Part shown: positions 3,237 to 29,944 of the stretch, piece by piece
How the letters are laid out: each line of letters starts with the position of its first letter
How positions within the stretch are numbered: the first letter of the stretch is position 1
Source: Bacillota bacterium
GTDB taxonomy: Bacteria; Bacillota; Sulfobacillia; Sulfobacillales; JAIMBI01
Length of the DNA stretch: 52,059 bases
Assembly (NCBI GenBank): GCA_021797815.1
Contig: JAJZYZ010000012.1
Span: 1 to 52,059 of the forward strand
Direction: 5' to 3'
Translations under genes and position numbers: made by a program
Notes under the pieces: model-generated
Told to the model about the DNA's origin: nothing
The model's input: only the letters and a program-made list of their open reading frames with translations
Databases searched by the model: none

Positions 3237-4037
3237 TTACGGAGGCGAGGGCGTACAATGCGCTTCGAGCGGCGGCAGGTTGCTCGCGGCCGACCGATCC
3301 ACACACCAGAGGACATGGCCATGGCGTCGTAGAATCGTCGCCGGGTATCGGCTTGAGGGCTCGCCGGTCAACACGTGCGCCAGAATCGCCGCCTTGGCTC
3401 GACCGGTTACCACCACGACGATGCGCCGCGCCTCCATGATGGTGCCAAGGCCCATGGTGATGGCCCGGTGCGGCACGGGCGTGTCTCCCGTCCGGAAGAA
3501 GCGCGCGTTGGCCCGGCGCGTCTCTTGCGTGAGGTCCACCACATGGGTGAGCGCCTCTGCGGCCGTTCCCGGCTCGTTGAAACCGATGTGACCGTTGGGG
3601 CCGAGTCCGAGGAGCTGAAGCTCGATGCCCCCCGCCTGCCGTATGTCCGCGTCGTAGGCTTCACACGCCGCCGGTAGGTCCTCCGCCATGCCGTCTGGGA
3701 TGTGGGTCCTCGAGGCCGAAAATCCTCCCGGTTCAAACAGATGCTGCCGCATATACGCATGGTAGGACTGCGGGTGATGGCCGGGGAGCCCCACGTATTC
3801 ATCGAGATTGAAGGTGGTGACGAAGGACGTGTCGAGCCGCTTGCTTCGGATGAGTCCAACGAGCCGACGGTACACCGGGACCATGCTGCCGCCGGTCGCG
3901 AGGCCGAGGCACACGGCCGGCTGCACCCGGATGGCGTCGGCCAGCAGGCGGGCCACGTACTTTGCCACATCCTCCCCGGTCGGAAGGATGACCAGATGGC
4001 GCGAAGCCGATCCGGGTGATTCGCCGACGTCAGTCAT
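3237..4037 (-). CDS. nagB: Glucosamine-6-phosphate deaminase NagB
   Basis: A 266-residue cytoplasmic enzyme converting glucosamine-6-phosphate to fructose-6-phosphate and ammonia, the entry of amino sugars into glycolysis. Diagnostic motifs are LGLATGGSMVPVY near the N-terminus, TFNLDEYVGL, and LGLGPNGHIGFNEPG holding the active-site His and Glu. Length matches the family (240-270). I chose ATG 4037 because it overlaps the stop of the upstream permease as ATGACTGA, an 8-nt overlap that implies translational coupling; a longer frame continues upstream but has no ribosome-binding site. It is the last gene of the eight-gene operon starting at 11651, which places glucosamine-6-phosphate at the end of that pathway. 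The deacetylase NagA is not in this operon but lies at 41890-43053. Confidence 0.93.
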   Translation of the reverse strand: MTDVGESPGSASRHLVILPTGEDVAKYVARLLADAIRVQPAVCLGLATGGSMVPVYRRLVGLIRSKRLDTSFVTTFNLDEYVGLPGHHPQSYHAYMRQHLFEPGGFSASRTHIPDGMAEDLPAACEAYDADIRQAGGIELQLLGLGPNGHIGFNEPGTAAEALTHVVDLTQETRRANARFFRTGDTPVPHRAITMGLGTIMEARRIVVVVTGRAKAAILAHVLTGEPSSRYPATILRRHGHVLWCVDRSAASNLPPLEAHCTPSPP

Positions 4038-4985: not shown

Positions 4986-5930
4986 TCAGGTCCGGAGCGC
5001 ATCATTCAGTCCATCGGCGAGAAGATTGAACCCGAGCATCGCCAGCGCCAGCGCCAAACCCGGAAAGATGAGGATCCAGGGCGCACTCTGGTAGACCTGG
5101 AGCCCCTCGCTTATCATCGAACCCCAGCTTGGCGTGGGCGGGGGAACCCCGAGTCCCAGAAAGGACAGCCCCGACTCGGCCATGATATTGGTGGAGATGG
5201 TGAGGCTCGAAAAAACCAGAATCGTGGGCAGGACGTTCGGCAGGAGATGCTTCAGCATGATGCGGGCCCGGGACGCTCCGCTCGCCACCGCCGCCTCCAC
5301 GTACTGTTCCTCCCGCACCAGCACGGCCTTGCCCCTCACCATCCGGACCATCGCCGGCCACCCCAGCACCCCGAGCACCAGAATCACGACCCAGGTCGAG
5401 GCATGCCCAACCACCGAGACCAGCAGCATGACGAAGAGATAGAACGGAAAGGCCAGCATCACGTCCACGAAGCGCATGAGAATGTTGCTCCAGCGCGCGG
5501 AGGTGGTGGCAGACAGCAATCCTAGAAAAACCCCGATGCTGACGGCGATGGCCGTCGCAATCAGGCCCACTTCCATGGACACCCGTGCACCCCAGATGAT
5601 GCGCGACAGGAGGTCCCGGCCGAGGCTGTCGGTACCGAGAAAGAAGCCCGGCATATGCCACTGGGGGGCTACCGGCACTCCCAGCGCGTTAATCCCGCGG
5701 GCAAACTGCTTATCCGGGGAATACGGGGCGATGAGCGGTGCCAGGACCGCCAGGATCAGCATCAAGAAGACGAGCCCGCTCCCCACCAACGCGATCGGGT
5801 CGTGGAGAAACCGTCGCAGGGCACGGCGGCGTGGAGATGGACCTGACGGATCCGAGCGGTCCGCGTCTATGCGGCCGACGGCCGCGGGGGCTGTCGTCAC
5901 GTTGCTGTTTTGGGGCCACTTTTCCGCCAT
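4986..5930 (-). CDS. ABC transporter permease, DppC/OppC family
   Basis: A 314-residue inner-membrane permease, second half of the family-5 importer. It begins with a polar N-terminal tail (about 35 residues, RRRALRRFLHD) followed by a first membrane segment, the DppC-type periplasmic loop (FLGTDSLGRDLLSRIIWGARVS), further membrane segments, and the coupling loop VREEQYVEAAVASGASRARIMLKHLLPN. The C-terminal segment FSSLTISTNIMAESGLSFLGLGVPPPTPSWGSM is a strong family signature. AGGAG precedes the ATG by a good distance. It lies 26 nt from dppB-like and 63 nt from the lipoprotein gene, all on one strand, so one transcript is likely. Confidence 0.92.
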   Translation of the reverse strand: MAEKWPQNSNVTTAPAAVGRIDADRSDPSGPSPRRRALRRFLHDPIALVGSGLVFLMLILAVLAPLIAPYSPDKQFARGINALGVPVAPQWHMPGFFLGTDSLGRDLLSRIIWGARVSMEVGLIATAIAVSIGVFLGLLSATTSARWSNILMRFVDVMLAFPFYLFVMLLVSVVGHASTWVVILVLGVLGWPAMVRMVRGKAVLVREEQYVEAAVASGASRARIMLKHLLPNVLPTILVFSSLTISTNIMAESGLSFLGLGVPPPTPSWGSMISEGLQVYQSAPWILIFPGLALALAMLGFNLLADGLNDALRT

Positions 5931-14640: not shown

Positions 14641-15045
14641 GTGACCACGAACGTTTACCTGGCAAGGCCGACCCAAAAAACGGTGGAAGACGCCATCAAA
14701 GCCGTGGAAGCGGCATTGCAGACGCGCAAGTTCAGTGTGCTATGGCACCTTGATATTAACGAGAAGCTCCGCGAAAAAGGCATCGAACCCGCGGCGCCCT
14801 TTCACGTGCTGGAAGTGTGCAGCGCCCCGCGGGCGCGCCAGGCCCTCACCACCAATCAGCAGGTGGGTTACTTCCTGCCGTGCAAGATCGTGGTGTATGA
14901 AGACAGTGAGACGGGCGAACGGGTGATTGGCCTGCAGCGCCCGCGGCTCATGGTGGAGCTGATGGGTGATCCGGCCCTGGAGCCACTGGCCAACGAGGTG
15001 GAAGAAATCCTGACGGCGGCCGTCACAGAGGCCGCGCAGGCTTAA
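14641..15045 (+). CDS. DUF302 domain protein
   Basis: A 134-residue cytoplasmic protein with the DUF302 fold: KTVEDAIKAVEAALQTRKFSVLWHLDINEKLREKGI, then PFHVLEVCSAPRARQAL and VGYFLPCKIVVYED, ending with VMVELMGDPALEPLANEVEEIL-type helices. The function of DUF302 is not established, but the family recurs next to sulfur- and redox-related genes. GTG 14641 follows a G-rich ribosome-binding stretch. The glutaredoxin-like gene begins 13 nt after its stop, so the two probably form a small operon driven by the promoter at 14590-14622. The two Cys residues (CSAP and PCK) are common positions in the family. Confidence 0.82.
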   Translation: MTTNVYLARPTQKTVEDAIKAVEAALQTRKFSVLWHLDINEKLREKGIEPAAPFHVLEVCSAPRARQALTTNQQVGYFLPCKIVVYEDSETGERVIGLQRPRLMVELMGDPALEPLANEVEEILTAAVTEAAQA

Positions 15046-15058
15046 AGGGGAGGCCGTC

Positions 15059-15298
15059 ATGGTCATCGTTTACACGACACCGACCTGACCGCACTGCCGG
15101 ACGCTCAAGCGCTATCTGAAGGATCGGAAGGTCCCGTTCAAGGAAGTGGACGTCGCCCACTCCGAGTCGGGCCTCGCGAGCCTGAAGCGCAAGTCCGGAG
15201 GGACCGGGGTCCCGGTCACGGATGTAAATGGTCAGATTGTCGTAGGATTCAATCGCCCGAAGCTTGACCGCGTCCTGGGCATTCCGGGGTCCGGCTGA
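15059..15298 (+). CDS. Glutaredoxin-like (YruB-type) protein with in-frame TGA: probable selenoprotein
   Basis: An 80-codon frame (79 residues if read through) begins with ATG 15059 behind AGGGGAGG. Residues 1-9 are MVIVYTTPT, then TGA (15086-15088, codon 10), then PHCRTLKRYL and onward in the same frame without further interruption to the TGA stop at 15296. Family members read YTTPTCPxC here, so the TGA replaces precisely the first, nucleophilic Cys of CxxC, giving UPHC. The rest is intact: EVDV, the cis-Pro region GGTGVPVTDVNGQIVVGFN, and a C-terminal helix. A random stop or error hitting exactly this codon is unlikely, so selenocysteine is the best reading. A weak hairpin at 15112-15126 (loop TGAAG) is the only SECIS candidate I see by eye. 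A nonsense mutation remains the alternative. Confidence 0.75.
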
Positions 15299-15460: not shown

Positions 15461-16297
15461 TTGATCTGGCAGCCTTTCCGAGACCCTGTCCTCGGATGCA
15501 GCTCGTTTCTTCTCGGAGACGAAGTGACGGGAGTCGGGCTCGTGGTCGACGCACTCGGGTCGGTGGGGCCGGACGCGTACATCTTGGCCGCCCAGGAAGC
15601 CGGTCTGGCCATCGGTTTTGTGGTCGAGACCCACGTCCATGCGGATCACGCGTCCGCCGCGGCCGGACTGGCCGATGCGCTCGGCCTCCCGGTCACGTTG
15701 TCCCACAAGGCCGAGGCCTCGTTTCCCATGAACCCGGTTCAGGATGGGGCCGAGATCGCCCTCGGTTCTCTGGTGGTGACGGTGTGGGAAACGCCGGGAC
15801 ACACGCCCGACAGTGTCTCGCTCATCGTGCGGGACAAAACGCGAAGCGACGATCCCTGGCTGGTCATGACCGGTGACAGTCTGTTTGTGGGCGACGTGGG
15901 CCGACCGGATCTGGTGGACGCGGAACCGGAACTGATCCGGCGGGCCGCGCAGGACCAGTATGAAAGCGTGCACCGCTTGATGACATTACCGGACTTCACG
16001 GAGCTTCATCCTGCACATTACGGATCGTCGCCGTGCGGCGGCCTCTTCATGAGCAAGAAGCCCGAGTCGACTATCGGCTATGAGCGCCGGACCAACCGCA
16101 TGCTCGCCATCGACGACCCCGATGAGTTTGCGGCTCTTCAGCTGAACCTTCTGAAGCCGCCGCCGCCCGATGCGGCGCGGCTGCGGAAGCTGAACCTCGG
16201 GGATCCGGCAGACGATGCGCCGGTCACCGCCAAGCGCACGGCCGCTGTGACCGACACCCTATCCTGGAATTCGCGAGGAGTGCTTGAAGATGACTGA
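15461..16297 (+). CDS. MBL-fold persulfide dioxygenase (ETHE1-like)
   Basis: A 278-residue cytoplasmic metallo-beta-lactamase-fold protein of the glyoxalase II/ETHE1 type, probably oxidising glutathione- or low-molecular-weight persulfide to sulfite. The metal motif is ETHVHADHASAAAG (His58-x-His60-x-Asp62-His63), followed by ETPGHTPDSVSL, TGDSLFVGDVGRPDL, and HPAHYGSSPCGG. The GDVGRPDL element is typical of persulfide dioxygenases, as opposed to glyoxalase II. TTG 15461 is preceded by GGAG with 8 nt spacing; a GTG nine bases earlier sits too close to the ribosome-binding site. It overlaps the rhodanese gene by 8 nt (ATGACTGA), an arrangement known for persulfide oxidation modules. Confidence 0.85.
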   Translation: MIWQPFRDPVLGCSSFLLGDEVTGVGLVVDALGSVGPDAYILAAQEAGLAIGFVVETHVHADHASAAAGLADALGLPVTLSHKAEASFPMNPVQDGAEIALGSLVVTVWETPGHTPDSVSLIVRDKTRSDDPWLVMTGDSLFVGDVGRPDLVDAEPELIRRAAQDQYESVHRLMTLPDFTELHPAHYGSSPCGGLFMSKKPESTIGYERRTNRMLAIDDPDEFAALQLNLLKPPPPDAARLRKLNLGDPADDAPVTAKRTAAVTDTLSWNSRGVLEDD

Positions 16298-16916
16298 CTC
16301 CGCCCAAGAGCTTCTGGAACAGAGCCGGCAAGGCACGCTGGCTCTGATTGACGTGCGCACGACCCAGGCGCACACCAACGGGCATGTGCCCGGGTCGGTG
16401 TCGGCGCCCTTCAGCCGGGACGGGTGGGGCCCGGCGGTGGCAGACTGGCTCCGGTCCCGGTCCGTAACCCGGGTGGGTATCCTGGCCGACAACCCCGTGG
16501 TGGGCCGGGCGGCCGGCGAGGCCCTGCAGGCCGAACAGGTCACGGTCCATGCCGTCTTCGACCGGGGCCCGTCTTCGTGGCAGGAGGCGGGACTGCCCAT
16601 CGTGTCCGTGCCCAGCCTGACGGCCGACGAGCTTGCCCGCCAGCTCGACACCCGAACGGTCATCGACGTCCGGGAACCTTATGAGCTCCGATCCGGCATC
16701 GTGCCGGGCGCGCTCACCATTCCCATGGGCCAGCTGGTGCGGCGAACCAGCGAGCTCGACCGGACGGCACGCTATGCCGTGATCTGCGCCACGGGCAACC
16801 GCTCGCAGTCGGCCGCCTCCTACCTGGCCGATCAAGGTTTTCAGGTGGAGAACGTGCGGGGCGGCATGGCGCTGTGGCTCGCCGGACGCCACCCCGTGGA
16901 TTACCCGAAGAGCTGA
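16290..16916 (+). CDS. Tandem rhodanese-domain protein
   Basis: A 208-residue protein with two rhodanese folds. The N-terminal one (about residues 1-95: LALIDVRTTQAHTNGHVPGSVSAPF) lacks the active-site Cys, having LADNPVVGR where CxxxxR would be. The C-terminal one (about 100-208: TVIDVREPYELRSGIVPGALTIPMGQL) keeps the catalytic loop CATGNRSQ with Cys166. It should transfer sulfane sulfur, for example from persulfide or thiosulfate, in concert with the MBL dioxygenase whose stop it overlaps. ATG 16290 is 9 nt from GAGGAG; a TTG six bases upstream is too close. The inactive first domain is common in tandem rhodaneses and may serve structure or binding. Confidence 0.88.
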   Translation: MTDSAQELLEQSRQGTLALIDVRTTQAHTNGHVPGSVSAPFSRDGWGPAVADWLRSRSVTRVGILADNPVVGRAAGEALQAEQVTVHAVFDRGPSSWQEAGLPIVSVPSLTADELARQLDTRTVIDVREPYELRSGIVPGALTIPMGQLVRRTSELDRTARYAVICATGNRSQSAASYLADQGFQVENVRGGMALWLAGRHPVDYPKS

Positions 16917-29581: not shown

Positions 29582-29668
29582 TCTAGTCCTCTCCCTTGAT
29601 CAGATCGCGGGCAGAGGCGTCCTGTGGACACAGGTCAGGCCAGCCCCAGCCACCCGCAGGGCTTGCCG

Positions 29669-29815
29669 AATCATGGGGTAGGTCTCCTGGCTCCGGTTCA
29701 TCGCCTGCGTGGCGCATCCTTCCCATGGACTGGTGGACGCACCGGCTCCCCGGTTACAGTGGCGGGCGCCGCTCAGGACTTTCACCTGATTCCCTGTTAT
29801 ACACCCGATGATTGG
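29669..29815 (-). promoter_or_regulatory. Adenosylcobalamin riboswitch
   Basis: Transcribed leftward. In RNA order I see the P1 5' arm (AATCAT about 29813-29808), the GGGAA...AGGTGAAAGTCCTGAGCGG core, the invariant GCCCGCCACTGT element (about 29765-29754), several variable stems, and the B12 box AGCCAGGAGACCTACC (29692-29677). The 3' P1 arm ATGATT (about 29674-29669) closes it. A GC-rich segment between the aptamer and the gene (AGCCC...GGGCT pairing at about 29660-29640) may be the expression platform acting on the ribosome-binding site. It controls the lipoprotein gene that begins at 29581. Confidence 0.93.
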
Positions 29816-29944
29816 ACGGGCTAACGATAACGGTCCTGGTCCGGAGGGTCAAGACAGCGCCCGTCTCCGCAACACTCACTTGGCCGCCCGCGCGAGCGTG
29901 CGGCAGGAAACGGGCCACGGCGCCCGAGAACATCTGGTACGGGG

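Follow-up and report, generated by a model that had tools for sequence, protein, structure and literature searches.

A reading frame in the 52,059-nucleotide stretch of DNA that we analysed (hereafter, the window) appears to encode a small YruB-type glutaredoxin, of the dithiol class, with selenocysteine in place of the catalytic cysteine (UPHC) and the UGA at codon 10 decoded by the selenocysteine (Sec) machinery. Judging from sequence comparisons, we put the probability of this reading at about 95%. We are almost certain that the gene is genuine and that it encodes a selenium enzyme which is difficult to annotate and belongs to a known kind, the selenocysteine glutaredoxins. The TGA is kept in 29 genomes and replaced by a cysteine codon in seven, and genes of the Sec machinery are present, which strongly supports the selenoprotein reading of the original prediction.

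Reading frame and codon 10 across the order

The features of the gene in the window are as follows.

15059–15298, + strand: probable selenocysteine-containing glutaredoxin (YruB-like) with a UPHC active site, 79 aa with the TGA at codon 10 read as Sec (based on translation, PF00462, orthologues, dN/dS and an AlphaFold2 model)
15086–15088, + strand: in-frame TGA, proposed selenocysteine codon, at the catalytic N-terminal residue of the CxxC motif (TGA in 29 genomes, TGC/TGT in 7)
15047–15053, + strand: ribosome-binding-site-like GGGGAGG, with the ATG 5 bases further

The frame comprises 79 codons, from an ATG start to a terminal TGA at 15296–15298, and translates as MVIVYTTPTUPHCRTLKRYLKDRKVPFKEVDVAHSESGLASLKRKSGGTGVPVTDVNGQIVVGFNRPKLDRVLGIPGSG. 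Translation and a Pfam search confirmed that its sole break is the TGA at codon 10, the first cysteine of CxxC: with this TGA read as Cys, the Pfam Glutaredoxin family (PF00462) spanned the full length of the protein with 57.8 bits (E 1.3e-15; curated cut-off 22.9). A sequence resembling the ribosome-binding site predicted upstream of the ATG was also located, at a spacing of five bases. The UxxC context by itself is weak evidence, because about 20 UxxC or CxxU TGA contexts occur in read-through frames across the window. The case for Sec at codon 10 is instead carried by conservation.

We searched 42 genomes of the same order for orthologues; these relatives had been deposited as Bacillota MAGs, one of them as Actinomycetes. 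Orthologues with the frame kept were found in 36 of the 42 genomes, at 58–92% identity. Codon 10 was TGA in 29 of these, spanning three families, and TGC or TGT in seven, with no other codon seen. The alignment agreed with the original prediction that the TGA stands in place of the nucleophilic Cys, with conserved sequence on both sides in the same frame; the seven Cys homologues have an uninterrupted frame. Our codon and folding counts use 38 rows (31 TGA and 7 Cys); TGA rows outnumber TGA genomes because two of the 38 rows duplicate sequences of genomes G018 and G035.

Beyond the TGA, the window gene differed from that of the nearest relative by 22 synonymous changes and 4 non-synonymous ones (dS 0.57, dN 0.027), and dN was likewise well under dS in other orthologue pairs. 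With dN/dS of about 0.05, strong purifying selection acts on the coding sequence that follows the TGA. Under the standard code, the TGA interrupts the glutaredoxin frame, as it would in a pseudogene with a real nonsense mutation or in a sequence with a base-call error. Conservation refutes this explanation, to which we assign a negligible probability: the identical TGA is common to 29 separately assembled genomes, the frames on both sides are intact and selected, and we saw no loss of the TGA accompanied by frame decay among the relatives. Translation from a true start downstream of the TGA, such as the GTG at 15146, would need no read-through, and a mechanical 50-aa open reading frame is indeed present from a downstream start. 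However, both the stretch before the TGA (MVIVYTTPT) and that from the TGA to the GTG (PHCRTLKRYLKDRKVPFKE) are conserved at the protein level, the seven uninterrupted Cys frames run counter to a downstream start, and by our structural model the active site would be missing from such a product, as would beta strand 1. We regard a downstream start as extremely improbable.

On a small protein tree of the orthologues (77 columns, few strong branches), two Sec/Cys changes were enough, and the deeper branches carried Sec. G010 and G011, a pair of genomes from a single genus, had no selA and had Cys at codon 10; their neighbouring protein disulfide oxidoreductase also carried Cys (TPTCPYC; L104, L105 and L172), compared with TPTUPYC in the others examined. 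Sec use has likely been lost in these two genomes. The Cys form needs no loss of machinery, since the five further Cys-form genomes retain selA. One exception was G009, in which the TGA form was present (G009:C120:6754-6978, L118) and selA was undetected; this assembly is in 400 contigs, and the absence of selA is probably an assembly gap. Close relatives with Sec and Cys forms provide natural pairs for testing the contribution of selenium to glutaredoxin, and in two Cys-form genomes the state of the neighbouring enzyme matches that of the glutaredoxin.

Selenocysteine machinery and the RNA after the UGA

Whether the genome carries the sel genes was answered in part. Each of the seven family genomes, the window's among them, has selB (TIGR00475) and selD (TIGR00476), both above cut-off, so the sel genes are not all absent from the window's genome; selA and tRNA-Sec were not found in its own assembly, and both are present in the six family relatives. 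The window's selD (G000:C15:19166-20098, L041) has an in-frame TGA at SGUGCK, where SelD usually carries Sec. Because of this TGA, the SelD of this genome would itself be a selenoprotein.

Overall, six of the seven genomes of the family had a detected selA, as did 36 of the 42 genomes searched in the order. The sister species carries it at 3467–4753 of contig C89. Base 1 of the window genome's contig C126 corresponds to position 5597 of that sister contig, and the two are colinear from there onward at 82% identity, which places the beginning of the syntenic contig about 840 bases from the expected selA position. Sequence from the selA side of the sister contig was not found in the window's assembly, short tRNA-like matches excepted. 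The missing selA fits an assembly gap, since contig C126 starts short of the selA site.

ARAGORN and Rfam both identified tRNA-Sec in 6 of 6 family relatives (67.8–74.3 bits), where the true tRNA-Sec is one of the common UCA-anticodon pattern matches (TTCAAATCCG...). In the window's own assembly, it was not found by Rfam (150 of 582 candidates scored), by the UCA-anticodon pattern or by a DNA search with the sister's tRNA. Two leads were discarded. A UCA-anticodon match common to all genomes (TTCAGGGCGCC...) had seemed to be tRNA-Sec near selB and was assigned by ARAGORN to tRNA-Leu(CAG). Contig C8, considered as a place where an assembly gap could account for the missing tRNA-Sec, showed partial similarity but was not colinear up to that point.

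The missing selA and tRNA-Sec would also be expected if the genome had no Sec machinery and an opal-suppressor tRNA read UGA as cysteine or another amino acid. We consider this very unlikely. The assembly does contain selB and selD, and selD itself needs UGA read-through; the relatives carry the full sel set, and the window genome's selA site lies at an assembly break. Moreover, the single UCA-anticodon pattern match that was confirmed to be a tRNA bearing this anticodon is tRNA-Sec, common to the six relatives.

Decoding of codon 10 as selenocysteine would proceed by the usual components: SelA would make Sec-tRNA-Sec using selenophosphate from SelD, and from the observed gene content we infer that SelB and Sec-tRNA-Sec decode the UGA in this mRNA. 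At least three more genes in the window's genome have a TGA where a redox or catalytic Cys would stand. A second glutaredoxin (G000:C27:575-808; L017, L183) has TGA in place of the first CxxC cysteine (YHAPGUSGC) and scored 63.1 against an NCBIfam UXX-star model, slightly below the cut-off of 66. A protein disulfide oxidoreductase (TIGR02187-like), on the minus strand of a separate contig (G000:C5, L182:5862-6518), has a TGA at VTPTUPYC.

The RNA that follows the UGA contains one region of interest.

15089–15127, + strand: stretch of constrained codons (Cys13 TGC, Arg14 CGG, Lys17 AAG), best SECIS candidate region (MFE -10.5 kcal/mol; codon conservation)

The weak hairpin at 15112–15126 that had been suggested as a possible SECIS did not hold up, as no structure was predicted for it when folded alone (0.0 kcal/mol). 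The 42 bases after the TGA gave a predicted fold of -10.5 kcal/mol with the apical loop UCAA. Folding energies just after the UGA were not clearly distinct from those of synonymous shuffles. Mean z for downstream folding energy did not separate TGA forms (-0.77) from Cys forms (-0.71), hairpins scanned for a G at either of the first two loop positions had a mean z of -0.74 (TGA) versus -0.46 (Cys), and RNAalifold on 29 TGA sequences returned no consensus structure and no covariation.

Codon use did give a signal. Among the 31 TGA rows, codon 13 was TGC in all 31, codon 14 was CGG in 29 and codon 17 was AAG in 29; elsewhere in the glutaredoxin genes, CGG accounted for 50 out of 162 Arg codons and AAG for 78 out of 150 Lys codons. 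Fisher P values were 3e-11 for CGG at codon 14 and 6e-6 for AAG at codon 17, both overstated because the rows are related. In the seven Cys forms, codons 13, 14 and 17 vary. These patterns suggest that the RNA directly after the UGA is under selection, as expected of a SECIS, and mark it as a candidate region only.

Separately, a further TGA glutaredoxin paralogue of the order (L016, L018, L144, L146, L147, L149 and L153) has a strong GUG-loop hairpin 24 bases after its TGA. This hairpin shows compensatory base changes and is a good SECIS candidate.

Gene neighbourhood and possible role

The glutaredoxin gene is surrounded by the following genes.

14641–15045, + strand: DUF302 protein (PF03625, 58.1 bits), 13 bases upstream of the glutaredoxin gene
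15461–16297, + strand: metallo-beta-lactamase-fold protein (PF00753), probable persulfide dioxygenase (ETHE1/Blh type)
16290–16916, + strand: two-domain rhodanese (sulfurtransferase; PF00581 in two stretches)

The order in the window is DUF302, glutaredoxin, metallo-beta-lactamase-fold gene and two-domain rhodanese. The metallo-beta-lactamase-fold protein has partial similarity to the sulfur transferase/dioxygenase Blh (NF040641), far under the cut-off. In the sister genome, the same three partners lie beside the orthologue, and some or all of them do so, rearranged, at five other loci (L022, L023, L166, L170 and L171). Some orthologue loci also have DsrE, a single-domain rhodanese, a metal-sensitive repressor (PF02583) or TauE nearby. 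Many loci have, no more than about 2 kb from the glutaredoxin, a TIGR02187-like protein disulfide oxidoreductase with its own TGA at UPYC; the counterpart of this oxidoreductase in the window's genome is the one on contig C5. This recurring cluster of DUF302, putative persulfide dioxygenase and rhodanese genes, often with a second selenoprotein, is the less usual part of the finding.

We also observed that the DUF302 gene stays with the glutaredoxin across several genera. Elsewhere in the window, a cobalamin riboswitch (Rfam RF00174, 77.3 bits) is located at 29660–29823 on the minus strand.

The gene neighbourhood suggests a redox role for the Sec glutaredoxin in sulfane-sulfur handling. By analogy with the family and given the persulfide-type gene cluster, the selenolate, positioned at the N-terminal end of helix 1, would attack a disulfide or a per/polysulfide. 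Residue 10 and Cys13, the latter acting as the resolving residue, would then form an Se–S bond, which either a low-molecular-weight thiol or a partner of the thioredoxin type would reduce. A candidate for this partner is the seleno protein disulfide oxidoreductase encoded next to the glutaredoxin in related loci. The order might even possess a dedicated selenium-based persulfide/polysulfide reductase module, in which the Sec glutaredoxin and Sec protein disulfide oxidoreductase, together with DUF302, persulfide dioxygenase and rhodanese, act on sulfane sulfur, a possibility that we hold to be rather doubtful. If the cluster does handle persulfides, Sec glutaredoxins would gain a substrate beyond protein disulfides. 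Many annotations would miss the Sec glutaredoxin, because standard gene calling loses it and it recurs across the order.

Comparison with known glutaredoxins and selenoproteins

An AlphaFold2 model based on the window protein and 21 relatives had glutaredoxin topology with a mean pLDDT of 93, and residue 10 was placed immediately before helix 1 (11–22). The best solved structure neighbours of the model were BC3987 and the dithiol cGrx1 7c10; cGrx1 was 40% identical, with a TM of 0.87–0.94. In its native form, cGrx1 is presumably the selenoprotein reported by Kim et al. (2011), a study cited in PMC13188914.

A literature search of open-licence papers found none on this particular glutaredoxin. 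Sec glutaredoxins (PF00462, UxxC) appear in published lists of the established selenoprotein families of prokaryotes (PMC13188914, PMC9312934), have been counted for Geobacter, Alkaliphilus and Moorella (PMC1794560) and had already been observed in PMC1088965. The window gene therefore adds a further Sec glutaredoxin and not a new kind, as UxxC glutaredoxins are an established, biochemically studied family. Our guess is that the window's order is linked to Sulfobacillus, for which a Sec formate dehydrogenase (PMC4378227) and a Sec peroxiredoxin (PMC7409299) have been reported.

The window protein shares its Pfam family and UxxC position with the known Sec glutaredoxins (Clostridium/Alkaliphilus oremlandii Grx1, Geobacter and Moorella) and differs from them in its UPHC motif, its order-wide conservation in these Bacillota and its gene neighbourhood. 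The known substrate of oremlandii Grx1 is the selenoprotein MsrA, which is not implied for the window protein. By score, the best NCBIfam model was the YruB family (TIGR02196), from which the window protein differs in having Sec in place of Cys; it scored 80.7, slightly below the cut-off of 88.55, and a Sec orthologue (L023) scored 89.9, above it. UXX-star proteins (NF041212, NF041114, NF041211 and NF047338) have Sec at the matching position of a glutaredoxin-like fold. The window protein fell below all UXX-star cut-offs (53.5 versus 66 for NF041212) and, unlike those proteins, keeps the resolving Cys. The second TGA protein of the cluster in related genomes, the seleno protein disulfide oxidoreductase (TIGR02187, homolog of the AhpF N-terminal domain; 177.8 for the L023 protein versus a cut-off of 185), carries TPTUPYC and is distinguished from the window protein by its two thioredoxin-type domains and length of about 210 aa.
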